From a virus, in the IMG/VR virus record IMGVR_UViG_3300032242_001775, positions 1 through 25,981 of that record: DNA of 25,981 bases. One strand, 5' to 3'. Under the pieces are notes generated by a model that saw only the letters and a program-made list of their open reading frames with translations, was not told the DNA's origin and did not search any database. The position numbers and the translations under genes were made by a program. Shown one piece after another: positions 223 to 18,529 of this stretch (positions within the stretch are counted from its first letter, which is position 1; every line of letters begins with the position of its first letter).

Positions 223-298
223 AATATGGTTTTCTCTGATGGAGTTTCATGTTTTCTCTTTGGTTGTCTCTTTTGGCGTGTGGTTTTTTTGGGTTTCT

Positions 299-316
299 GG
301 CTACACTGGCTACACT
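299..316. repeat. Tandem GGCTACACT repeats abutting the integrase start
   Basis: Two head-to-tail copies of GGCTACACT (299-307 and 308-316) end exactly one base before the ATG of the integrase at 317. They match the pair at 149-169. Besides possible arm-site function, integrase bound here would cover its own start and could repress its own expression. That regulatory reading is inferred. Confidence 0.55.
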
Positions 317-1432
317 ATGGCGTCACTGTACAAGCGGGTAGGAAGCCCCTACTGGTGGATTAAGTACTTCAATGACACTGGAAAGCGGGTTCAGGAGTCC
401 ACCGGCCTTCTGCATGATTCGGTTGCACAGACCCGAGAGGCCAGAAAGCTGAGGGCTTCCAAAGAAATGGAGGAATGCCGTGCCCCCAGATCGGATCGAT
501 CCCCGAGGGCTTTCAGTGTTTGGGTGATTCCGTGGCTCACTTCCCAGAACAAGAACGACGGAACGCTGGAGAGCTACCTGGGCGCATGGAAGAACCTCTT
601 GTCCTTCTTTACCAAGCAGGAAATCCGATCCGCCTCCGAGGTGAAGCGGGAGCACTGCTTCGCCTACCTGGACTGGCGCATCGCCCAGGGCGTCTGCAGG
701 AATACGGCCATTCATGACCTCCGTATCCTGAGAAAAATCCTTTTTGAGGCCTACAACCGCGAGTGGATCGACCGGAATCCGGCCAGCAAGCTCGGCATCG
801 AGCGCGATACCCCAGAAAGAAAGCCGGTCATCAGTGACGCCGACCGAGCCAAGGTTGAGGCCAGTTTTCCCAAAAAAACCGACTGGAGGGAAATCTGCTG
901 GACCATTGCCATCAATCAAGGCTGCCGACTGGCCGAGACCAGTCTGCCGATTTCCGACGTGGACTTCGATCACGACCTGATCACCTTCACCTTGAAGGGA
1001 GGACGCCGACACACCACAAAGCTCATGCCGGAGGTAAAAAAACTCCTCCTGAAGCTCAAGGCCGATGGAGCCACCCGCACGTGGGAGTTCCACCGGCTGG
1101 CCAGCCGAGACTGGTCGCGCATTTTCGAGCGACTTGGATGCAATTTCAGTTTTCACAGCACCAGGGTGACCGTGATCACGAAGCTGGCCCGCGCTGGAGT
1201 GAACGAGCAGATGGCCCGTCGATTCATTGGTCATGCCTCCAGCGAGATCCATGCTATTTACACGCGGCTAGAAGCCGGTGACCTCGATTGCTGCGTGGAT
1301 GCGTTGACTGTACCTTCAGCCCCACTGACCTCGCCGACTTTGGAACGGCCATTGAAGGGTAAGCCTGGGAAAGCCGGAACCCGCCGGCAGAAAGCGCGGA
1401 TTGGTCGGCCAGCCATGCCAAGGCGTGTTTGA
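317..1432 (+). CDS. int: Tyrosine site-specific recombinase (phage integrase)
   Basis: This 371-aa integrase catalyses site-specific recombination between attP and attB through a covalent 3'-phosphotyrosine intermediate. The start is set at ATG 317 (MASLYKR...), which matches the usual N-terminus of this family. The longer frame upstream only translates the GGCTACACT repeats. An N-terminal SAM-like core-binding region spans about residues 70-165. Catalytic residues can be followed: Arg204 in NQGCRLAE, Lys227 in TLKGGRR, His280 and Arg283 in SFHSTR, His306 in FIGHAS, and Tyr315 in AIYTRL. A basic tail of about 50 residues follows the tyrosine. Its last 179 bp are antisense to a helix-turn-helix gene. 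The neighbouring tRNA-like core is the probable attachment site. Confidence 0.95.
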   Translation: MASLYKRVGSPYWWIKYFNDTGKRVQESTGLLHDSVAQTREARKLRASKEMEECRAPRSDRSPRAFSVWVIPWLTSQNKNDGTLESYLGAWKNLLSFFTKQEIRSASEVKREHCFAYLDWRIAQGVCRNTAIHDLRILRKILFEAYNREWIDRNPASKLGIERDTPERKPVISDADRAKVEASFPKKTDWREICWTIAINQGCRLAETSLPISDVDFDHDLITFTLKGGRRHTTKLMPEVKKLLLKLKADGATRTWEFHRLASRDWSRIFERLGCNFSFHSTRVTVITKLARAGVNEQMARRFIGHASSEIHAIYTRLEAGDLDCCVDALTVPSAPLTSPTLERPLKGKPGKAGTRRQKARIGRPAMPRRV

Positions 1433-2257: not shown

Positions 2258-2508
2258 AACTCAATCCTGCGCCAGTTATCCCTCCAGAGAAGGTCGGAGA
2301 GCCGGTTGGCGTAGGCCCGAACCATCATCTCACCGGCATCGGGCAGCAGAAGGTGGATCCCTTCGTGAATGACCGTGTCAAGTCGCTCACGACTGCTGCC
2401 CTGCTTGACCGGATCGATCTCGATCATATCGGGATGATGAGCCAGCCCGAGGGCACGTTCCTTTCCGAGGCGGCGCTCCCTGATCTGGATCTTTTTGGGG
2501 AGTTTCAT
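2254..2508 (-). CDS. Mini zinc-metallopeptidase-like protein (HExxH)
   Basis: This 84-aa protein carries HEGIH (His48-Glu49-x-x-His52), the zinc-binding and catalytic motif of metallopeptidases, within DTVIHEGIHLLLPDAGE. Glu60 is a possible third metal ligand. It is basic at the N-terminus, then a short extended region (MIEIDP), the motif helix, and a C-terminal helix ending LLWRDNWRR. It is far smaller than typical proteases, close to minimal HExxH proteins seen in phages and plasmids. Its ATG overlaps the preceding gene's stop (ATGA), so it is translationally coupled. It is the last gene of the minus-strand run and ends against a convergent gene. The substrate is unknown. Confidence 0.65.
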   Translation of the reverse strand: MKLPKKIQIRERRLGKERALGLAHHPDMIEIDPVKQGSSRERLDTVIHEGIHLLLPDAGEMMVRAYANRLSDLLWRDNWRRIEF

Positions 2509-2690
2509 GGCATTCCCCTGACCTTTTCCACGATCATGAGCTGAAACTCGCAGAGGGCCTCCAGCATCTTCTTTTCGTCATCGGTCACCACCCGCAGCCG
2601 GAATGGGAGTTCGATCCCTTCGACCGTGACATCGAGGGTGAGGCCCCACCGGACACATCCATCGGCGTCCTGGGAGGCCTCGTCGCTCAC
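2505..2690 (-). CDS. Small conserved-looking phage protein, unknown
   Basis: A 61-aa product is predicted from a GTG at 2690 that overlaps the metallophosphoesterase stop (GTGA). The frame is open further upstream, but that part only shadows the esterase gene. After an acidic start (SDEASQDADG) there is a two-strand region (VRWGLTLDVTVEG, LPFRLRVVTDDE) followed by a C-terminal helix (KKMLEALCEFQLMIVEKV). It overlaps the following HExxH gene by 4 bp. The function is not recognised. The tight coupling on both sides argues that it is real. Confidence 0.55.
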   Translation of the reverse strand: MSDEASQDADGCVRWGLTLDVTVEGIELPFRLRVVTDDEKKMLEALCEFQLMIVEKVRGMP

Positions 2691-3673
2691 AGGAGAACCC
2701 CGTGGTGGATCCGTCGGTTCTCCACCTCGAAATCCCCTGCCCCACCCATCTCGACCACGGCGAATCCGTGGTTCCATCGGTTCAGCGGCATATAGTGAGG
2801 GTGAAGTTCGCAGAGACAGCCGGAAGAAAAACACGTGATCATCTTTGAGCGCACGGTCGGCTCGGTGTGCTCGCTGGTCTGGTGGAGGTGTCCGGTGAGG
2901 GTGCTGTCTTTGGCTTTCAGAAAAAATCCCCTGGCCGCGTTGACGGGGGCAAGGATCGCCTGACGATACTCGTGGCCGTGGAGGATCGTGAGCTTTCCGG
3001 CGTGGATGAGTCGCTTGTCGGTGACGTACTCGATGCCACGGTTGGCAAAGGACATGAGATCGGGAAATCGGAACTGCGGAATGTCCAATAATTCCGGCGC
3101 CTTCACCCTGAGATAGCTCGTGTAGCGTTCGTCGTGGTTGCCATCCTTCCAGATGATCTTTGCCTTTGGGAACTTGTATTGGAGGTAGTCCAGGAACTCA
3201 TTGACCGCAGCAATCTCATCGGCTGCGCTGCGTTCACGAGGATCCTTTTCAAAACGGCTGAGTTGGTAAAAATCAATCGTATCCCCGTTAAGGAGGATCG
3301 TGTCGACTTTGCGCTTTTTGAAATGCGCTAGGGCCACTTCGAGGGCCGGGGTGTTGTGGTAGGGAATGTGGACATCCGAGAGGACGGCGATCACGTTGCC
3401 CTCGAGGAGGTAGGGAGTGAACTTCCGTTCCAAGCTCACGGGAAGAAAGGGATTGTTCGGTTTCTGGAGTGGTCGCACGTTGCGCTTGTCGGCCATCTTG
3501 CTGAGATTCTTTTTGCCGCTTGCTCCGCGATGGTACATGAGAGTGCCACGGCAAGACTCAAGGTTTGACCAGACCTCGGGGTGTTTTTTGTAGAGTTTCT
3601 TTGCCAACGTGAGGGTTGGAGTATCGGGAAACTTATCAAGCGCGGCTTTGGCAATGTTTCCTTGGATGCTCAT
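2687..3673 (-). CDS. Calcineurin-like metallophosphoesterase
   Basis: This 328-aa protein has the full set of binuclear metallophosphoesterase motifs: DVHIPYH (Asp100, His102), NGDTIDF (Asp131), GNHDER (Asn179-His180), LHGHEY (His232, His234) and TGHLHQ (His262, His264). Such enzymes cleave phosphomono- or phosphodiesters, and in phages they may act on nucleotides or DNA ends. Residues 1-60 precede the catalytic domain and look helical and basic, possibly a nucleic-acid-binding extension. It starts with ATG overlapping the kinase stop by 4 bp. The upstream mRNA reads CAACCCT immediately before ATG rather than a Shine-Dalgarno sequence. The substrate is not predictable. Confidence 0.9.
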   Translation of the reverse strand: MSIQGNIAKAALDKFPDTPTLTLAKKLYKKHPEVWSNLESCRGTLMYHRGASGKKNLSKMADKRNVRPLQKPNNPFLPVSLERKFTPYLLEGNVIAVLSDVHIPYHNTPALEVALAHFKKRKVDTILLNGDTIDFYQLSRFEKDPRERSAADEIAAVNEFLDYLQYKFPKAKIIWKDGNHDERYTSYLRVKAPELLDIPQFRFPDLMSFANRGIEYVTDKRLIHAGKLTILHGHEYRQAILAPVNAARGFFLKAKDSTLTGHLHQTSEHTEPTVRSKMITCFSSGCLCELHPHYMPLNRWNHGFAVVEMGGAGDFEVENRRIHHGVLL

Positions 3674-4200: not shown

Positions 4201-4760
4201 GCCAGGAGAGACTTGGAGGCGTCGAGCCGGTTCAGCCAACCTTTGAGAAATTTCCCCTGGGAAGGACGCTTTTCCACGATCCCCTCGTAGTGGCGGCGCA
4301 CCTTTTGAAGGAACGACATGGCTAGTCCGGTCGAGTCGGACACGGACATCGCTGCGGAACGGGTCACATCACCGAGGGATCCATCGATGGTCAGTCTGGC
4401 CGAGTAATCATTGAGCGCAAACTGAAGGGCACGAATGGCTGGGTGGATACCGATATTCACGCCGGAGACAAAACAGACCGATTGCACCGGAGAGGGAAGT
4501 CCCGTAAAAACCATCCAGTAGTTGCTGAAATAACAGAAAGCAATATCACCGGGAGTCGAAGCATCAGTCACCTCCCCGTCGCGTTTTAAAAGACCAGCAA
4601 AAGTGGCTCCACCCGGATCGTCGGGGTCATTTTCCCACCGGATCGTCTTGTGATCAGCGGCGTATTCACATTCCCATTGGAGGACCAGCGCAAGCGCTTT
4701 GCGGAAGGCTGCTGGATAAGAGGCCACCGAGGCCGCAGCCAGGATGTCTTCGATGGTCAT
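4197..4760 (-). CDS. Endolysin, glycoside hydrolase family 108 type
   Basis: This 187-aa protein cleaves peptidoglycan to release virions. Residues 16-60 show the family 108 signature: a helix ending in LQWECEYA (Glu30 is the likely catalytic acid) followed by NDPDDPGGATFAGL. A mid-region YFSNYWMVFTGLPS and FVSGVNIGIHPAIRALQFALN correspond to the conserved second half. The C-terminal third, with IDGSLGDVTRSAA, resembles the peptidoglycan-binding type 3 segment of this family. There is no signal peptide, so export depends on the holin-like neighbour. The start overlaps the upstream gene stop by 4 bp, and its own stop overlaps the kinase start. WECEY replaces the more usual WEGG, a mild divergence. 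Confidence 0.85.
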   Translation of the reverse strand: MTIEDILAAASVASYPAAFRKALALVLQWECEYAADHKTIRWENDPDDPGGATFAGLLKRDGEVTDASTPGDIAFCYFSNYWMVFTGLPSPVQSVCFVSGVNIGIHPAIRALQFALNDYSARLTIDGSLGDVTRSAAMSVSDSTGLAMSFLQKVRRHYEGIVEKRPSQGKFLKGWLNRLDASKSLLA

Positions 4761-5005
4761 GGTTTTTCAGCAAATTTGCTGATGCCTTTGGCTGCCGAAA
4801 GTGACCCAATCGCCACGCTCAAAAGGTTGGCAATGTTGGGAGGGCAATCCACGACGTCGCGGGTCAGGACGTGCCGCGTGATGAAATAGACGGTTACTCC
4901 GACCACGGTAAAAAGAACCACCCAAAGTCCGATCCTGACTGAGGACGGGTCTCCATTGGCTTCACAGAGTGCGGCTTTGAGGAAGTTCAAAACGTGAACC
5001 TCCAT
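4757..5005 (-). CDS. Putative holin-like membrane protein
   Basis: The start is placed at ATG 5005, giving 82 aa (MEVHVLNFLKAALCEANGD...). The longer open frame upstream only shadows the spanin gene. One clear membrane segment spans about residues 27-44 (LWVVLFTVVGVTVYFITR). A second weaker hydrophobic stretch runs about 58-75 (NIANLLSVAIGSLSAAKG) before a short charged tail. It sits directly upstream of the endolysin with a 4-bp overlap, the classical holin position. The alternative is an accessory phage membrane protein. No strict family motif is visible, so the call rests on size, topology and context. Confidence 0.6.
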   Translation of the reverse strand: MEVHVLNFLKAALCEANGDPSSVRIGLWVVLFTVVGVTVYFITRHVLTRDVVDCPPNIANLLSVAIGSLSAAKGISKFAEKP

Positions 5006-5535
5006 GCCGTTTTTACGCCGATGTAACCGACCACGGCGAGGATTGAGAGCAGGGCAATCCCACGCCACCAAAGAAGCTCAGAAAGCGCCGTTTGTTGTTT
5101 AGACCTCCAGTAGACCACGTCATTTTGAGCCGACTCCAGTTGCCGGGCCTGTTCGTTGACTTTCCCGACATATTGACCAACGGCGATCTGGGCCGCGTTG
5201 AGCGAGTTGGTCAGTTCCGTAAAGGCCTTCTCGCCACCGGGGGCGACATAGCCACTCAGGGCGACCGCTGCCGTGCTGGCCGAGGAGACCGAGGAAACGA
5301 CCGCCACCGGCGATGGGGCGATGTAGTCATGCTTTGGAGCCGATGCGCATCCTGAAAGGGTCAGGATCACGATAAATGGCGTTACCCTCGCGGCCCATTT
5401 GAGGAGTTTTTCGTGAAGCCGGTGGCGAAAGATCACAATCTGCCATCCAAGGGCAAGCTGGATTGAGGTCAGAACGTAGAGAAGGCTGAACCAGAAATGC
5501 CGCGCCAGTAATCCGACGATGCGGAGGATATTCAT
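4987..5535 (-). CDS. Spanin-like lipoprotein with C-terminal membrane anchor
   Basis: This 182-aa frame starts at ATG 5535 behind a strong GGAGGAG ribosome site and a TTTTGACA box. A hydrophobic segment at about 14-35 is followed by a second one that ends in a lipobox, LTLSGC (Cys63). A GTG at 5436 (residue 34) preceded by GGATGG would give a 149-aa form that begins with a standard lipoprotein signal peptide (IFRHRLHEKLLKW... then the lipobox). Downstream is an Ala/Ser/Val-rich region, a helical Gln/Asn-rich stretch (about 103-150), and a membrane segment at about 155-174. Outer-membrane lipidation plus an inner-membrane C-terminal anchor is the architecture of unimolecular spanins. It lies within the lysis cassette. 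The function is inferred. Confidence 0.6.
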   Translation of the reverse strand: MNILRIVGLLARHFWFSLLYVLTSIQLALGWQIVIFRHRLHEKLLKWAARVTPFIVILTLSGCASAPKHDYIAPSPVAVVSSVSSASTAAVALSGYVAPGGEKAFTELTNSLNAAQIAVGQYVGKVNEQARQLESAQNDVVYWRSKQQTALSELLWWRGIALLSILAVVGYIGVKTAWRFTF

Positions 5536-12519: not shown

Positions 12520-13112
12520 CCGTAAATGCTAGTGATTGAAAACACTTTCACTAACACATCGACAGATCCGTAATTAGTGCGCGATACAGAAACGGGATCA
12601 ACTTGGAAATTCAGAAGGGATTGCAAATCTGATGCACTATTTATATTGTAATCACCACCAAAAACTTTTGAGAATTTCACATATCCGCCATTAATATCAT
12701 TAAGGGTTGGCGTTGAAATAGTGTCTTGATTTACTAAAACGGCTTTTTCGATTGTGTACGTTGGTGCGTAATAACTTCCAGAAACGCGAGTCAGTGTGTT
12801 TCCAATCATTCCCAAATAATCGAAAGACTTAACTTGTGTTGAATTAGAAACCCGGCTTGATCCCGATGCGCCGTGATATGTGCAAGTAATGGTTTTTATT
12901 CCGTTGGAAACTGTTTCTGTTTTTGTGAAAAGTGTTGTTCCGTTGTCGCCTTGTTCTCCAACACTGAGAGTCAGTGGATCATTTGAATTGCTTGGATTAA
13001 ACGTTGAAGCACAAGCATAGGTTTTAACAATAGTTATCAGCCCATTGGGATCGATTGAAACCGTGCTGCCTGGCTGTAAAATAAGCTCTGTGCTTGCTCC
13101 TTGGTAAATCAT
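12516..13112 (-). CDS. Tail-associated structural protein (unknown)
   Basis: This 198-aa protein is directly downstream of the tape measure with a 4-bp ATGA overlap. That is the slot usually held by a distal tail or tail-tip connector. Composition is Ser/Thr/Asn-rich and beta-like (TELILQPGSTVSIDPNG, TKTETVSNGIKTITCTYHG). A central stretch runs YYAPTYTIEKAVLVNQDTIS. No recognisable catalytic or repeat motif was found. The call rests on position and composition. Confidence 0.6.
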   Translation of the reverse strand: MIYQGASTELILQPGSTVSIDPNGLITIVKTYACASTFNPSNSNDPLTLSVGEQGDNGTTLFTKTETVSNGIKTITCTYHGASGSSRVSNSTQVKSFDYLGMIGNTLTRVSGSYYAPTYTIEKAVLVNQDTISTPTLNDINGGYVKFSKVFGGDYNINSASDLQSLLNFQVDPVSVSRTNYGSVDVLVKVFSITSIYG

Positions 13113-15034
13113 GATATGGCGTGTTGGGGAAGGACTTGATGCAGGAATTTATTGAAATCACCTTTTAACCATTCCGCCAGTGCATCCACGGGGTCTTTTT
13201 TTGCAAGAGGACTACCATCAGGATTTCGGCCTGAAGCACTTCCACTACCAAGGGGTCCCGAAGTTTTGTTGACTGAGTCGGTCAGGAGACGTCCATAGCG
13301 GGCTTTCTCTTGGTCAACCATCTGCTGTGCTGCGGCGCGACCATAGCCTCCCATCTCGAATTGGGAACGACGAAGGTCATTCTCTTGTTGTGCCTGAGTC
13401 TGGACAGCCCTTTCGCGCATTAGGGACGCCGCACCTTCAAAGTTTCCTGTCTTTTGAGCCGTGGCAATGCGTGGATCAAAGAGCTTGGCCATTTGAGAAG
13501 AAATCTGCATGGAAGAACCGGCCAGCATTTCTTGCATATCAAGGCCAAGGTTTCCGGTGTTTTTGTAAAGTCCAGTGGCAATCGAAGCATCGTCAATGAT
13601 CGGAGCCATCTTTGCTTTCCATACCGCGCCACCTCCATTACCGCCACCACCTCCATTACCGCCACCACCACCGCCTGCGGGCGTTTTTGTGGTTGCAGCA
13701 GTTTGTTTTTCGGGGTGTTTGGCAGCTTCTTCGTTTTGTTTTTTGATCAGTTCGTTGAGTTCTTTTTGTGATTTTACGGTATCAAAAAAGTTTTCTTTGT
13801 TTTTGTAGCTGGCTTCGGCAGCGGCCATTGCATCCTCGGCGATGTCGGAATAAGACTTTGAGGTCTTCTCCACTTGAGTGGAAAACTCTCCGTGGACATA
13901 TTTTAGTTCGGCCAATGCAAGACCAACAGCAGGGAGATCCATGCGGAGCGCGGCCACGGCAAGTTTTACCCAGGCATTGGCAGCCGTTCCGGCCTGAAGA
14001 AACGCTTCTTTCAGCGTGTTGAAAATGAACTTACCGGCATCTGCAAAAGCCTGATACATCCCACGGAACAGCGGGGCATCTGTGGCAAAGGATTCCAAAG
14101 CAAAAACGCCCACCCCAACAAAAGCCGCCTTGAGAACCCGCATGATCTCATTGCCCATCTTTTCGGCGTAAATTGTGGCCGTGGAAAGGGCGATTGCCAA
14201 CGCAGCTTTGAAGTTGCCTTCTTTCAAATCATTGGCAAAAGCTTTCAAGGGTTCACCCATGTTGGCTGTGAGTTCCTTGCCAAACTTGGCGGCGTCAAAG
14301 TTTGCCACGATATCCGCAAGTCCTTGAAGTCCTCCGGTCACGTTACTGAGTGCGCCAACAGCAAACTCGGTCATCTTGTGGCCGACGCTTTTTTCAATCG
14401 TGTTGCCGAGTTTTTCCAGCTCCTCGGAGTTCATGCCCATGATCTCGGAATAAGAACCAAGTTGCCCTTTGGATTCTTCCACTTTTTCATCAAAGTGGGT
14501 GAAAAGTTCCATGAGCTTTCCGCCTGATTTGCCAAAAATCGCCATGCTGGCTGCGGCCCTCTCACTGGGATCGGAGATCGAGGCAACGGCTTTGCCGACT
14601 GCTTCCAGTTGCTGATCCGGGGAAAGTTTCTGAAGCTCGGCCATGCTGAGACCGAGACCGGCTATGTGATAAGCGGCCTCGCTTCCGTTGTCAGAGGCTT
14701 CAACCAGATACTTTTGCATCTTGTTGACCACCTTTCCCATATCGTCGGCTTGTTGGCCGGAAAGTTCAAACGCTCGGCCAAGGACTCCGAGCTGATCAAC
14801 CGCAATCCCTGTCTGGTCGGAAAGTTCGTTGAGCTTTGCCGCCTCATCCATTGCCTCTTTGAAACTTTCAACGACTTTTTTCAAGGACTCAAAACCAAGA
14901 TACATTTCCGCCAACTTTTTGGTATGCTCCATCAGAGCCTCGCCAAGTTCTTTGCCAGCTTTGCCGACTTCTTTGAATGATCCGATGACGGCAGATTTTC
15001 CATCCACCCCCATTGTTACGTTGATATCGGCCAT
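13109..15034 (-). CDS. Tail tape measure protein
   Basis: This 641-aa protein sets tail length and helps DNA delivery. The N-terminal 60 residues are helical (FKEVGKAGKELGEALMEHTKKLAEMYLGF). They are followed by the characteristic tape-measure block (LNELSDQTGIAVDQLGVLGRAFELSGQ..., MAELQKLSPDQQLEAVGKAV, SERAAASMAIFGKSGGKLMEL). Hydrophobic helical segments lie around residues 270-390. A poly-glycine linker (GGGGGGNGGGGGNGGG, about 455-470) precedes a C-terminal helical domain. At roughly 0.15 nm per residue the tail would be near 95 nm. A TTTTTGACT box lies 15 nt before the ATG, and the TGA inside it is the stop of the upstream gene. Confidence 0.93.
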   Translation of the reverse strand: MADINVTMGVDGKSAVIGSFKEVGKAGKELGEALMEHTKKLAEMYLGFESLKKVVESFKEAMDEAAKLNELSDQTGIAVDQLGVLGRAFELSGQQADDMGKVVNKMQKYLVEASDNGSEAAYHIAGLGLSMAELQKLSPDQQLEAVGKAVASISDPSERAAASMAIFGKSGGKLMELFTHFDEKVEESKGQLGSYSEIMGMNSEELEKLGNTIEKSVGHKMTEFAVGALSNVTGGLQGLADIVANFDAAKFGKELTANMGEPLKAFANDLKEGNFKAALAIALSTATIYAEKMGNEIMRVLKAAFVGVGVFALESFATDAPLFRGMYQAFADAGKFIFNTLKEAFLQAGTAANAWVKLAVAALRMDLPAVGLALAELKYVHGEFSTQVEKTSKSYSDIAEDAMAAAEASYKNKENFFDTVKSQKELNELIKKQNEEAAKHPEKQTAATTKTPAGGGGGGNGGGGGNGGGAVWKAKMAPIIDDASIATGLYKNTGNLGLDMQEMLAGSSMQISSQMAKLFDPRIATAQKTGNFEGAASLMRERAVQTQAQQENDLRRSQFEMGGYGRAAAQQMVDQEKARYGRLLTDSVNKTSGPLGSGSASGRNPDGSPLAKKDPVDALAEWLKGDFNKFLHQVLPQHAIS

Positions 15035-15051: not shown

Positions 15052-15891
15052 TCAAAAAGGTTGCCCTTCGGCTTTTTTTAACGCGGCCTTGATCTCATAT
15101 CCCATGCTTTTGAAAAACTTCTCACGCGAGATCCTGATGGCTTCCTTGTGGTCTTTAGGTCGGAGGGCCTTCTCGCCCCACGGGATCTTTGAAGTCAACG
15201 TGATGTGCGGAAGCAATCCCTCACTTTTGTCCGTCACGGCATGAGGAACACGGGAGACATGACGTTTTACCCATGCCGGGATGCCTCGAAGGGCATCTTT
15301 CACGTCGGCATTGACATCCTGGGCACAGGCAGCCCAAGCAGACTTTGTCAGTCCAACCAGATCCTGACGGGCCGTGATGTAGGATTTTACCTCTTTGGAA
15401 TCCATGACCACAATCCGGCTTTTCCATCTTTTGCGAACTCGCCCGTAATCATTACGAGTTCGTTTGTGAATGGAAGGATCAACCGACCGGTCAAAAAGTA
15501 AATTGCTGAAAGTCGGAAGGTGACCGAGGATGGTTTTTAATTTAGCAGGATCGGACGCTTTGATAGCGGAGAGAACGGCCAATTTGAGCCGAGGGCTTTT
15601 GGTGATGTATTTCTCAATCTGTTCTTTGAAACTCAAAGCACGAGAAGGATGTTTTAATGAAATGGGTTTGGATGGAGTGTAGACTCTGATGATGTCGTTC
15701 TGGACGGCAATCTCACCTTTCTTTTTTGCTTTTGGATCTGATCCATAAGGGGGCACGGAATATGCGAGATTCACTCCCAAAAGTCGCGCTCCTCGGCGGA
15801 GCGATCCGGAAATCTCTTTGCCGGTGACTTCTTCGTAACGCCTCATGCGCTTGAGAAGCCTGCTAAAATCCACTTCGGTTTTCTTTGCCAT
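15052..15891 (-). CDS. Basic minor tail protein (unknown family)
   Basis: This protein is 279 aa from ATG 15891, or 281 aa from a GTG at 15897. It is very Lys/Arg-rich (MAKKTEVDFSRLLKRMRRYEE...), with helical N- and C-terminal parts and a mid-region containing RKRWKSRIVVMDSKEVKSY. It sits between the ligase cassette and the tape measure. By order it should be a tail completion or minor tail component, but no family is recognised. Upstream, TTTTGACA lies 17 nt from the ATG (11 from the GTG), beyond which is a strong hairpin in the divergent spacer. Confidence 0.65.
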   Translation of the reverse strand: MAKKTEVDFSRLLKRMRRYEEVTGKEISGSLRRGARLLGVNLAYSVPPYGSDPKAKKKGEIAVQNDIIRVYTPSKPISLKHPSRALSFKEQIEKYITKSPRLKLAVLSAIKASDPAKLKTILGHLPTFSNLLFDRSVDPSIHKRTRNDYGRVRKRWKSRIVVMDSKEVKSYITARQDLVGLTKSAWAACAQDVNADVKDALRGIPAWVKRHVSRVPHAVTDKSEGLLPHITLTSKIPWGEKALRPKDHKEAIRISREKFFKSMGYEIKAALKKAEGQPF

Positions 15892-15922
15892 ATCCACTGA
15901 TCACCGGCTGTCAAAACATGAA

Positions 15923-15961
15923 AAAATTTCGGTTTTTGTTATTTACAAAAACCGAATTTTT
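15923..15961. promoter_or_regulatory. Strong AT-rich hairpin in the divergent spacer, possible terminator or operator
   Basis: An 11-bp perfect inverted repeat (TTCGGTTTTTG at 15928-15938 and CAAAAACCGAA at 15946-15956) has a 7-nt loop. After one mismatch it extends by four further A-T pairs. Both strands end in T runs (TTTTT on plus, TTTTTT on minus), so it could terminate transcription in either direction. It lies between the minus-strand tail gene start (15891) and the plus-strand ligase start (15977). It could stop late transcripts that cross the ligase in antisense, or be a protein-binding palindrome. Confidence 0.65.
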
Positions 15962-15976
15962 AGCGAAATTCCACTC

Positions 15977-16834
15977 ATGAGCTTCTCCTTATCCGAGCCA
16001 ATGCTGGCGGCCAATTTCCACATCTTTTCAGGAGTGGAACTGCCCCTCATGGCGTCGCCTAAATATGACGGCATCCGGTGTCTGATTGTGGAGAAAGATG
16101 GGAGACCGGCAGCGGTCACTAGGACAATGAAACCAATCCCCAATTTTGCCACGCGCCTATGGCTAGAGCAAAACTGTCCCATCGGATTCGACGGGGAGTT
16201 GGTCGTCAAGGGAGAGGACTTCCACGGTACTTCCTCGGCCATCATGTCACGGAATGGAAAGCCCGACTTCCTATATGCTGTTTTTGATTATATTGACCCC
16301 AAGGCTGCCACGCCTCTATCAACTGCCTTTTCTGATCGAATTGCCGCGCTGGATCACGTCCTATTGACGCTAAATCTTTCCGGTCGTGTCATTTGCATTG
16401 AGCAGACCCTTGTGCAGTGCATGACGGAACTTACCCCGCTAATGCAACAGGCATTGGATGACAATCATGAGGGCCTTGTGATCCGGCGACCTGATGGTCG
16501 ATACAAGACCGGACGTTCCACTCCAGAGGAGGGCCTCATGCTCAAGCTGAAGCCCTATGAGGACGCCGAAGCGGAAATCGTCGGCATGGAGCCGGAGCGC
16601 AGTGATCTCTTCACCGATGACCGGCTTGGTTCCTTTTTTGTGCGCCTGAAGAGTGACCCATCCATCCGGTTCCATATCGGGACGGGGCTTACCGATCAGC
16701 AGCGCGGAGAGTTTTGGAACAAGCGAGCCAGCATGATGGGCAAGATGATCCGGTTCCGATATCAGTCACGCGGCATGAAATCCGCGCCACGCTTTCCCGT
16801 TTTCCAAGGACTCCGTGATGAAGCCGACATCTAA
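15977..16834 (+). CDS. ATP-dependent DNA ligase (T7-like)
   Basis: This 285-aa protein starts at ATG 15977 (MSFSLSEPMLAANFH). The in-frame extension upstream covers the hairpin and is unlikely to be translated. It seals nicks in duplex DNA through an enzyme-adenylate. Nucleotidyltransferase motifs are clear: motif I SPKYDGIR (Lys29 is the adenylated lysine), a TRTMKPIPN segment, FDGELVV, motif III LYAVFDYI, motif IV EGLVIRRPDGRYK, and motif V MLKLKPYEDAEAEIVG. A C-terminal OB-fold region (about 195-285) completes a minimal phage ligase. It is on the plus strand, against the late operon. No good Shine-Dalgarno sequence is seen. Confidence 0.92.
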   Translation: MSFSLSEPMLAANFHIFSGVELPLMASPKYDGIRCLIVEKDGRPAAVTRTMKPIPNFATRLWLEQNCPIGFDGELVVKGEDFHGTSSAIMSRNGKPDFLYAVFDYIDPKAATPLSTAFSDRIAALDHVLLTLNLSGRVICIEQTLVQCMTELTPLMQQALDDNHEGLVIRRPDGRYKTGRSTPEEGLMLKLKPYEDAEAEIVGMEPERSDLFTDDRLGSFFVRLKSDPSIRFHIGTGLTDQQRGEFWNKRASMMGKMIRFRYQSRGMKSAPRFPVFQGLRDEADI

Positions 16835-17000
16835 GCACGGAGGATACAGGGCCGGATCGGGCAGAAAAAAGGGAAGCGGGAAAGGCCGTGTCTCGGTGAC
16901 CGGCTCCCTATCCATGCCAAGAGAAATGTGGGAACGCCTGGACAAGATCCGAGGTCCTATATCCCGTGGTAAGTGGTTGGCTTTAGTCCTCTCCAAGTAA
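16818..17000 (+). CDS. Ribbon-helix-helix DNA-binding protein with basic GR-rich arm
   Basis: This 60-aa protein starts at ATG 16818 and overlaps the ligase 3' end by 17 bp, so the two are co-expressed. Residues 8-23 are a basic arm (GGYRAGSGRKKGSGKG) of the GGxRxGxGRxKK type, also found at the N-terminus of the portal protein in this window. Residues 24-60 follow a ribbon-helix-helix plan: strand RVSVTGSLSM, helix PREMWERLDKIRG, helix SRGKWLALVLSK. It may control the ligase cassette or late genes. Its last 18 bp are antisense to the end of the tail chaperone frameshift extension. Confidence 0.65.
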   Translation: MKPTSKHGGYRAGSGRKKGSGKGRVSVTGSLSMPREMWERLDKIRGPISRGKWLALVLSK

Positions 17001-17602
17001 TCCCACCTCGATGATGTCATCGCTCCACCGAAGGGATTTTCCGTCCAGCCAGACGTAGTAGTCCAGCAGCCGGACGCCTTCGGTCAGTGGCAATCCCCAG
17101 AGAATGAAATCAAGCGACCAGGATGTCTTTTCAGCGAGTCTTGCGACGTAGCTGGTCAGCCAGCCCGGTCTCCAGCTTTTGGGTCGTTCTCTCCTTCCGA
17201 TACCGACGCCTCACCCCTGACCGACGTGCGGGCCTTGTTCATGAGCTGGATGGCTTCCAGCACCTTGGGCGTGGCCTCCTCAAACATCCAAGGCCTGAGC
17301 GTGTAAAGAAAATCAATAACGGCCACGCGGAAGGCTCCCTTCTTGTAGGCCAGCTTCTTCATCTCTCCCTCCGGGCGTGTCTGGCAATACAGGACCGCTG
17401 CGATGTCGTAGGGAATAGAGTCACTCTGACCAAGCAGGACATTCACTCCGGCTTCCACCATGAGGGCAAAGTCTCCGGCAGTAATGGGGCGCAAGATCAT
17501 TCCGGCCACCTCGTCGCCTCCGCGCAGGAGATTGGCATCAAGGGCTTTGTTGCGGGATTCCGTAGTTTCTTCGTTGAGATCCGGCGTCATATCGTCATTC
17601 AT
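16983..17602 (-). CDS. Tail assembly chaperone, frameshifted long form (G-T type)
   Basis: This is the predicted 206-aa fusion made by a -1 ribosomal frameshift. The first 142 residues are those of the short form. At CCCAAAA (17183-17177) the ribosome would slip back one base and continue in a frame that stays open for 64 codons to TAA at 16985-16983. The extension contains SWSLDFILWGLPLTEG, RLLDYYVWLDGKSLRW and SDDIIEVG, a coherent protein rather than random translation. In lambda and many siphophages the G and G-T proteins are made this way and coat the tape measure during tail assembly. This frame has no usable start of its own, which supports fusion. Confidence 0.85.
17151..17196 (-). promoter_or_regulatory. 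Programmed -1 frameshift signal (slippery heptamer with stimulators)
   Basis: On the minus strand the order is an internal Shine-Dalgarno-like AAGGAG (17196-17191), 7 nt, the X XXY YYZ heptamer C CCA AAA in the zero frame (17183-17177), 12 nt, then a short hairpin GCTGG-CTGA-CCAGC (17164-17151). A larger alternative stem pairs AGCTGG (17177-17172) with CCAGCT (17155-17150). This matches the three-part layout known from dnaX and phage tail genes. The zero-frame stop is only 18 nt after the heptamer. Confidence 0.85.
17156..17602 (-). CDS. Tail assembly chaperone, short form (G type)
   Basis: This 148-aa protein starts at ATG 17602. After an acidic N-terminus (MNDDMTPDLNEETTE) come LRPITAGDFALMVEAGVNVLLG and a helical region to about residue 125 (FRVAVIDFLYTLRPWMFEEATPKVLEAIQLM). 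A disordered charged tail follows, where the frameshift site lies. Length and layout match lambda gpG-like chaperones, normally placed between the tail tube and the tape measure as here. The leader has CAACCCAACCC and no Shine-Dalgarno sequence. The short product ends at TGA 17156. Confidence 0.8.
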   Translation of the reverse strand: MNDDMTPDLNEETTESRNKALDANLLRGGDEVAGMILRPITAGDFALMVEAGVNVLLGQSDSIPYDIAAVLYCQTRPEGEMKKLAYKKGAFRVAVIDFLYTLRPWMFEEATPKVLEAIQLMNKARTSVRGEASVSEGENDPKAGDRAG

Positions 17603-17685: not shown

Positions 17686-18102
17686 TCAGGAAGCCATTTC
17701 GGCCAGTCGGTTGCGTTCGTTGCGGCCCAACTTGGGAGAGATGACCAGACGCTTGTCGCCACGGTTGGCCAGAGATCCGTTCGGAACCTTGTGGCTTTCC
17801 GAAATAATGTGATGCCTAGAAAACATTGCCTCGCGGGCCACGAGGAAGCAGACCATGTTGGATGGACGCTCAAGCCCCTCGCCAAGTGGGTTTTCCCATG
17901 CGGTCAAGAACGGAACGATGTCCTCTCCGTCGGAGTTCTTGGTCTGGAAATGCCAAGTAAAGCTCTCCCTGCCTTGGCTGTCGGTCATCCGAGTGCATTC
18001 CGCAAACGGCTTGAATGCAAATCCGGCCGCGTGGATCGAGATGGCCAGCTTCATGTCGCTGGTGGAAAACCAGCTTCCCTCACAATTTGGTTCTTCAGTC
18101 AT
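17686..18102 (-). CDS. Tail-region protein of unknown function
   Basis: This 138-aa protein starts at ATG 18102 (MTEEPNCEGSWFSTSDMKLA). A TTG further upstream is in frame but lies in the terminator T tract. Residues 10-75 look like an alpha/beta domain (LAISIHAAGFAFKPF, RESFTWHFQTKNSDG, IVPFLTAWENP). The region around 85-100 (NMVCFLVAREAMFSRHHII) is helical and the C-terminus is basic (PKLGRNERNRLAEMAS). It stands between the tail tube and the chaperone gene, a slot that in some siphophages holds an accessory tail assembly factor. No family is recognised. Confidence 0.55.
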   Translation of the reverse strand: MTEEPNCEGSWFSTSDMKLAISIHAAGFAFKPFAECTRMTDSQGRESFTWHFQTKNSDGEDIVPFLTAWENPLGEGLERPSNMVCFLVAREAMFSRHHIISESHKVPNGSLANRGDKRLVISPKLGRNERNRLAEMAS

Positions 18103-18112
18103 GGGTATATTC

Positions 18113-18140
18113 AAAAAGTTGCCCCCTTTAAGCCGGGGGC
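18113..18140 (-). terminator. Rho-independent terminator after the tail tube gene
   Basis: On the minus strand GCCCCC (18140-18135) pairs with GGGGGC (18126-18121) across an 8-nt loop and is followed by AACTTTTT (18120-18113). It lies 18 bp after the stop of the major tail protein gene. The short GC-only stem with a T tract is a reasonable intrinsic terminator, perhaps partial, limiting read-through into the chaperone and tape measure. Confidence 0.65.
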
Positions 18141-18157: not shown

Positions 18158-18529
18158 TTAGGAAGTGATCAGCGGGTAGCGGGTCGCGCTCACCGAGATG
18201 TCCTTGAAACCATCGGGCTTCTTGCTGATTTGAACGGAGTCCACGATGACCAGTCCAGCCGCACAGCCTCCTACGGACTCAATGTTGGCCAAAGTCAGGG
18301 CGACTCCGACCGAAGCGGCGACCACTCCAGTGGTGCCAGCAACCGTGCCAGCGACTGAGATGGCTGCGCGGGGGTTGGTGACAGCGAGGAGCTTCACGTT
18401 CCCCGTCTCATCCTTGACCTCGGTCTTGTCCGAGGTGGTGTTGATGGAAAACGAGTTGATGAGGATGCCGGTTTCGGCGGTGCAGCCGAAGCTGGTGCCA
18501 GTTGAAGATCCGAGGAGAGTTGCGGCCAT
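18158..18529 (-). CDS. Major tail (tube) protein
   Basis: This 123-aa protein begins MAATLLGSSTGTSFGCTAETG. It is beta-rich and contains INSFSINTTSDKTEVKDETGNVKLLAVTNPRAAISVAGTVAG, the pattern of small phage tail tube proteins (a strand pair, then a loop with DETG). The C-terminus (SVQISKKPDGFKDISVSATRYPLI) fits the closing strands. It lies between the tail terminator and the chaperone, is followed by an intrinsic terminator, and has a CAACC-rich leader without a Shine-Dalgarno sequence. Those expression features parallel the capsid gene. The assignment is by pattern and position. Confidence 0.65.
   Translation of the reverse strand: MAATLLGSSTGTSFGCTAETGILINSFSINTTSDKTEVKDETGNVKLLAVTNPRAAISVAGTVAGTTGVVAASVGVALTLANIESVGGCAAGLVIVDSVQISKKPDGFKDISVSATRYPLITS

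Follow-up and report, generated by a model that had tools for sequence, protein, structure and literature searches.

A conserved -1 frameshift arrangement in a putative lambda-type tail assembly chaperone gene of a probably temperate phage

The window analysed here, a single stretch of 25,981 nucleotides of viral DNA, carries on its minus strand a small ORF that ends shortly after a candidate slippery heptamer and is followed in the -1 frame by a second open stretch of coding sequence. The features at this locus, in the order in which they are transcribed, are as follows.

18158-18529, minus strand: probable major tail protein, two genes upstream of the chaperone; named from its place, with no family match above chance
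17156-17602, minus strand: zero-frame ORF of 148 residues, putative G-like tail assembly chaperone, read from the sequence and ending at TGA 17158-17156
17191-17196, minus strand: AAGGAG, 7 nt upstream of the heptamer and possibly an internal Shine-Dalgarno-like stimulator, read from the sequence
17177-17183, minus strand: slippery heptamer CCCAAAA, in the frame C CCA AAA, identical in 11 viral contigs
16983-17177, minus strand: -1 frame extension (putative T-like domain), 64 codons plus TAA 16985-16983, supported by 42 related viral loci and by pN/pS
17116-17170, minus strand: predicted stem-loop beginning 6 nt after the heptamer, GACCGGG (17170-17164) with CCTGGTC (17122-17116), from fold prediction
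17151-17164, minus strand: small hairpin GCTGG-CTGA-CCAGC, 12 nt after the heptamer, read from the sequence
13109-15034, minus strand: tape measure protein (phrog_9483, 1.5e-13), downstream of the chaperone in relatives

The minus-strand sequence around the slip site is GGAAGGAGAGAACGACCCAAAAGCTGGAGACCGGGCTGGCTGACC. On re-reading, CCCAAAA lies in the zero frame exactly as first described, with 18 nt between the end of the heptamer and the chaperone stop, and translation confirmed the 64 open codons of the -1 frame, giving a predicted slip product of 142 + 64 = 206 residues. The extension had also been said to fill a gap with no other gene, which is incorrect, since a plus-strand ORF at 16815-17000 overlaps its last 18 nt. 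This 61-residue ORF has a 92% identical copy in the sister contig L003 and a 56% homologue in the more distant L014; the latter (L014 6808-6963, plus strand), perhaps a small moron gene, occurs in a distant phage and in another setting. An ATP-dependent DNA ligase ORF (PF01068, PHROG 114) accompanies it, the pair occupying 15845-17000 on the plus strand inside the late operon. Encoded on the opposite strand, the two ORFs separate the chaperone extension from the tail gene that comes after it, and both are present in the sister contig; in the eight other CCCAAAA relatives that were tested the next tail gene follows directly after the extension.

How surprising this arrangement is can be gauged from the window itself. 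Zero-frame X_XXY_YYZ heptamers occur 23 times in the 7,375 codons of its 27 minus-strand ORFs (0.3% per codon), and from base composition a -1 frame would remain open for 58 codons past the TGA by chance in about 8% of cases. Only one other of the 27 ORFs (15052-15897) has a heptamer in its last 60 nt within an open overlap, and there the -1 frame closes after 5 codons. Given the heptamer frequency and the chance of an open frame, the case from one sequence is therefore moderately surprising, suggestive rather than conclusive, and it is the relatives that settle it.

A sequence search with the chaperone protein itself found one near relative (91% identity), and the window's extension as query found 12 viral contigs. 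In eleven of these CCCAAAAGCTGG is preserved, the stop follows at 18 nt and the -1 frame remains open, CCCAAAA itself being retained as the original prediction would have it; the twelfth, L014, has an A-run in its place. A profile search with the extension yielded 42 viral loci, including the 12 contigs of the direct search, which amount to 21 distinct sequences when compared over the first 50 extension residues. None of these relatives lacks a slip site or has stops in the -1 frame: at all 42 loci the extension lies open, shifted by -1 relative to the ORF before it, whose stop is preceded at 0-27 nt by a zero-frame X_XXY_YYZ heptamer. One of the profile-search patterns, KSWRPGW, overlaps the last codon of the heptamer, so that conservation of the K codon is in part selected for; the other, D[YF]ILW[EG]LP, is free of such overlap. 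The heptamers themselves comprise GGGAAAC at 21 loci, CCCAAAA at 11, CCCAAAC at 6 and A-runs at 4 (AAAAAAA/AAAAAAT in three cases and AAAAAAA/AAAAAAG in one). The presence of different heptamers at the same place suggests that the heptamer has been replaced several times, with the direction of the shift and the gene layout unchanged.

The genomic neighbourhood is likewise conserved. In all nine CCCAAAA contigs tested (L003-L010 and L013), as well as in L028 and L029, the homologues follow the order probable major tail protein, 17686-18114 homologue, chaperone, extension, 15052-15897 homologue and tape measure, with one gene thus separating the chaperone and its extension from the tape measure. 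The tape measure homologue is still downstream in the more distant L041, L043 and L048, and in L014, L032 and L039 a search of the available stretch at E 1e-3 did not recognise one; the tape measure search matched the sister contig alone.

Neither the chaperone nor the extension gave a match in Pfam, PHROG yielded weak hits at best and nothing convincing, lambda G and T were not recognised by hhalign, and a profile search of solved structures returned nothing convincing; the comparison of the extension with known chaperone domains, proposed as a check on the original prediction, thus found no match. PHROG 11996 (208 residues, function not known) matches 13 of the 21 extension sequences, with a best E of 0.0012. 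The weakly matching part comprises its residues 144-173 and its length resembles that of the whole fusion, of which it may be a relative. Structure models of the two parts (pLDDT 71 and 74) gave no clear match in a BFVD fold search, nor did the chaperone model against PDB chains; the two models matched two Myoviridae sp. ct8ME27 proteins weakly (E 0.7 and 0.9). Among INPHARED phages the window chaperone found nothing as DNA or protein query, the window extension matched at E 5 only, and L039, L050, L043 and L044 gave nothing usable.

From its place, its size, the direction of the shift and the frame of the extension, we suggest by analogy that the gene works like lambda G/GT, as a lambda-type tail assembly chaperone whose homology to lambda G and T is undetected. 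The failure to match known chaperone families and folds, together with the further gene that intervenes before the tape measure, could also be accommodated if the frameshift were real and the product were some other frameshifted structural or assembly protein. We regard this as unlikely, since in those relatives that have recognisable neighbours the gene agrees with the lambda arrangement by its place, small size and -1 direction.

Alternatively, ribosomes might re-initiate after the chaperone TGA and translate the extension as an independent small gene from a start codon of its own. Late phage operons often contain short overlapping genes, the corresponding extension in Akkermansia phage Moulinsart (see below) is annotated as a CDS of its own from an internal ATG, and a possible start precedes the extension match in four of the 42 loci. 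At the other 38, however, no ATG, GTG or TTG occurs in the extension frame from its preceding stop up to where the extension match begins. The window has no such codon upstream of the site in this frame, and its only in-frame candidates, TTG at +90 and GTG at +177 from the start of the heptamer, lie inside the conserved domain, so that a separate protein would lose PKSWRPGWLTSYVARLAEKTSW. An independent gene is consequently very improbable, and programmed slippage is the preferred reading of the frame relationship.

Sequences that might stimulate such slippage were evident on both sides of the heptamer. AAGGAG is present 7 nt upstream, as had been claimed, and forms the best anti-Shine-Dalgarno duplex of the set tested (-8.8 kcal/mol), although it is only loosely kept in relatives, which have the weaker GGTGGAG or GGGGA at this place, or none, and it is absent from the GGGAAAC group. 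Bacterial -1 frameshift cassettes do not require such an element. The 5-bp hairpin noted 12 nt downstream is also present in the window, but it is not kept in relatives and does not appear in the minimum-energy fold at 60 nt. That fold contains instead the longer stem-loop listed above, at -23.2 kcal/mol and a z of about -2.5 (60-65 nt folded), which falls in about the 4-5% tail of the genome background with seven lengths tried (the 5% quantile of z is -2.4 in 308 stretches of the same genome). At 50 nt the z is only -0.29, because this cut-off removes the 3' arm of the stem. Scans of the window for Rfam families and tRNAs returned no hits.

In relatives a long stem-loop is found 5-8 nt after the site, that of the window being weaker and re-paired. 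Representatives L018-L027 have a stem-loop that starts 5-6 nt after CCCAAAA with a z of -2.6 to -5.4 (50 nt folded), and a z of -3 or lower is reached at the best of seven lengths by 15 of 21 relatives; the exceptions are L017, L028, L029, L043, L048 and L050, of which L028, L029 and L050 carry A-runs. In the GGGAAAC group, whose stem lies 7 nt downstream of the heptamer, 5 of 16 pairs carry double changes, and none of 500 shuffles reached the covariation score of this stem. In the CCCAAAA clade there is a double change at only 1 of 16 pairs, the others being invariant, changed on one side or broken. The window and its sister L017 have lost the usual 3' arm through base changes that preserve the residues R-L-A-E, and the 5' arm GACCGGG is predicted to have re-paired with a new 3' arm, CCTGGTC, a model that has little covariation behind it. 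The window may plausibly depend more on its Shine-Dalgarno-like element.

An alternative route into the -1 frame would be transcriptional rather than ribosomal slippage. At the four loci with runs of nine A at the shift site (L028-L030 and L050) slippage by the polymerase is plausible and constitutes a real alternative. The remaining 38 loci have CCCAAAA, GGGAAAC or CCCAAAC, in which the runs are too short for polymerase slippage. A stem-loop at 5-8 nt also corresponds to the arrangement seen in ribosomal frameshifting (PMC5009743); bacterial -1 cassettes carry a structure 5-9 nt after the heptamer. For the locus as a whole we consider a transcriptional origin very improbable, and ribosomal slippage remains the favoured explanation.

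The pattern of substitution points to protein-level selection on the extension in the expected frame. Over 37 gap-free codons past the TGA, comparison of the window with each of 11 relatives gave a pN/pS of 0.12-0.31 in the -1 frame and of 0.73-3.10 in the other two frames, and variable columns number 20, 12 and 33 of 37 at the first, second and third -1-frame codon positions, respectively. The extension evolves as protein in the -1 frame only. Wobble positions 0 and 3 of the heptamer, which are free of constraint from the -1 frame, show no variation across the 12 aligned sequences, four of which (L024-L027) are near copies, whereas all 24 upstream wobble positions vary in the same set. Although metagenomic contigs can carry indel errors, it is scarcely credible that the -1 frame derives from an originally uninterrupted gene through decay or a sequencing frameshift, as the extension is under purifying selection and the frame is broken at the same place in 42 contig records with different heptamers.

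Taken together, these observations make it very probable that 17602-17156 encodes the G-like chaperone of a temperate siphophage-like virus, and that a programmed -1 slip would give rise to a G-T-like fusion of 206 residues; the frameshift originally proposed is supported, as far as sequence allows, by all 42 loci. In the mechanism that we infer, which extends to the slippage itself, its efficiency and stimulators, the protein contacts and the production of the 206-residue form, most ribosomes would stop at the TGA whose first base is 17158. A minority would slip one base back on C_CCA_AAA, tRNA-Pro moving from CCA to CCC and tRNA-Lys from AAA to AAA, probably with help from the stem-loop that follows and perhaps from the AAGGAG that precedes the site, and would then read 64 further codons to give the fusion. 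If lambda and TP901-1 are a guide, the short form, which would be the common one, would coat the tape measure protein, and the rare fusion would bring in the major tail protein.

The presence of a tyrosine integrase (239-1432, plus strand; PHROG 1, PF00589) indicates that the phage is probably temperate. The best phage match of its terminase is Akkermansia phage Moulinsart (33% identity over 89%), and this match, together with the gene arrangement shared with Moulinsart, makes a host among the Verrucomicrobiota a reasonable inference. A scan of genome contigs for the host produced a single candidate in an Anaerolineaceae bin (L016), which was rejected as a spurious match of 23 residues with the frame inside another ORF.

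Judged by the sequences compared here, this is a real and well-conserved case of a known type of frameshift, in a chaperone family of uncultured phages that is absent from the libraries searched; no prior description of the family was found in the literature searched, which lay mostly outside subscription journals. It is possible, and we advance this tentatively, at somewhat less than even confidence, that the proteins form a separate, unnamed chaperone family of Verrucomicrobiota phages and perhaps of neighbouring groups, a family whose members swap heptamers freely (CCCAAAA, GGGAAAC, CCCAAAC, A-runs and AAAAAAC) and keep the place, the direction and mostly the stem-loop, with the sites ending in AAC reflecting hosts that slip differently and the stem of the window having been re-paired. 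Sites ending in AAC account for 27 of the 42 loci, about two thirds, and are found in Moulinsart as well. Should this reading be correct, such sites, which are reported to be less slippery than AAG in E. coli, would point to a differing asparagine tRNA or ribosome. Throughout the group, annotation pipelines are likely to divide or overlook the chaperone and its extension, the Moulinsart record being an example. With its natural series of heptamers and stems at a single orthologous site, the family should be useful for studying the evolutionary replacement of frameshift signals, and for asking if slippage at AAC codons occurs in bacteria other than the laboratory models.

Among known phages, Moulinsart (L060) shares a chaperone-sized ORF followed by a -1 extension containing ATGWTEYYIKHMPL (WAK79076 and WAK79077), with A_AAA_AAC directly before the TAG and the tape measure downstream. 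It differs in being annotated as two separate hypothetical proteins. The match was obtained at E 0.4 with the extension of L032 as query, and not with the window's own extension; this query found Moulinsart and Bacteroides phages at E 0.4-2, and the hits were retained only since the gene place and frame fitted. A strong stem-loop (z about -5) is predicted after A_AAA_AAC in the region examined (4537-5237). It is probable that an unannotated -1 frameshift joins WAK79076 to the WAK79077 frame. Twelve window-gene queries found no match in Moulinsart or in Bacteroides phage jmh42_hp (L061). In the latter (2474-3204) a small ORF immediately before the tape measure carries the extension-like SATGWSVDYIL. 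Its frame, which stands in a -1 relation to the preceding ORF, stays open a long way back into that ORF, with A_AAG as a candidate site; having no X_XXY_YYZ site near the stop, this phage was not counted as support.

The haloarchaeal tailed viruses HCTV-1 and HCTV-2 have g-t sites G_GGA_AAC and A_AAA_AAC (PMC5009743), the same as those of the GGGAAAC relatives and of Moulinsart. They differ in having archaeal hosts; the comparison here covered their slip sites. From lambda the window differs in its heptamer (CCCAAAA as opposed to GGGAAAG), in the length of the extension (64 codons compared with 144 for the lambda T ORF), in having one gene before the tape measure and in that sequence similarity to G/GT is undetected; known G and T proteins are very divergent among themselves (PMC5009743).

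The part of PMC5009743 available to us describes the -1 G-T frameshift in long-tailed phages as classic and widely conserved, and C_CCA_AAG as highly shift-prone in E. coli. For TP901-1, the available part of PMC4493119 reports from mutants that tails require gpT made via the slip site, and that the particles obtained with a permanent fusion do not infect. With lambda G/GT and TP901-1 gpG/gpGT the window shares a small ORF situated between the major tail protein, here placed by position, and the tape measure, a -1 shift at X_XXY_YYZ near the stop of that ORF and a -1 extension (lambda record; PMC5009743, PMC4493119).
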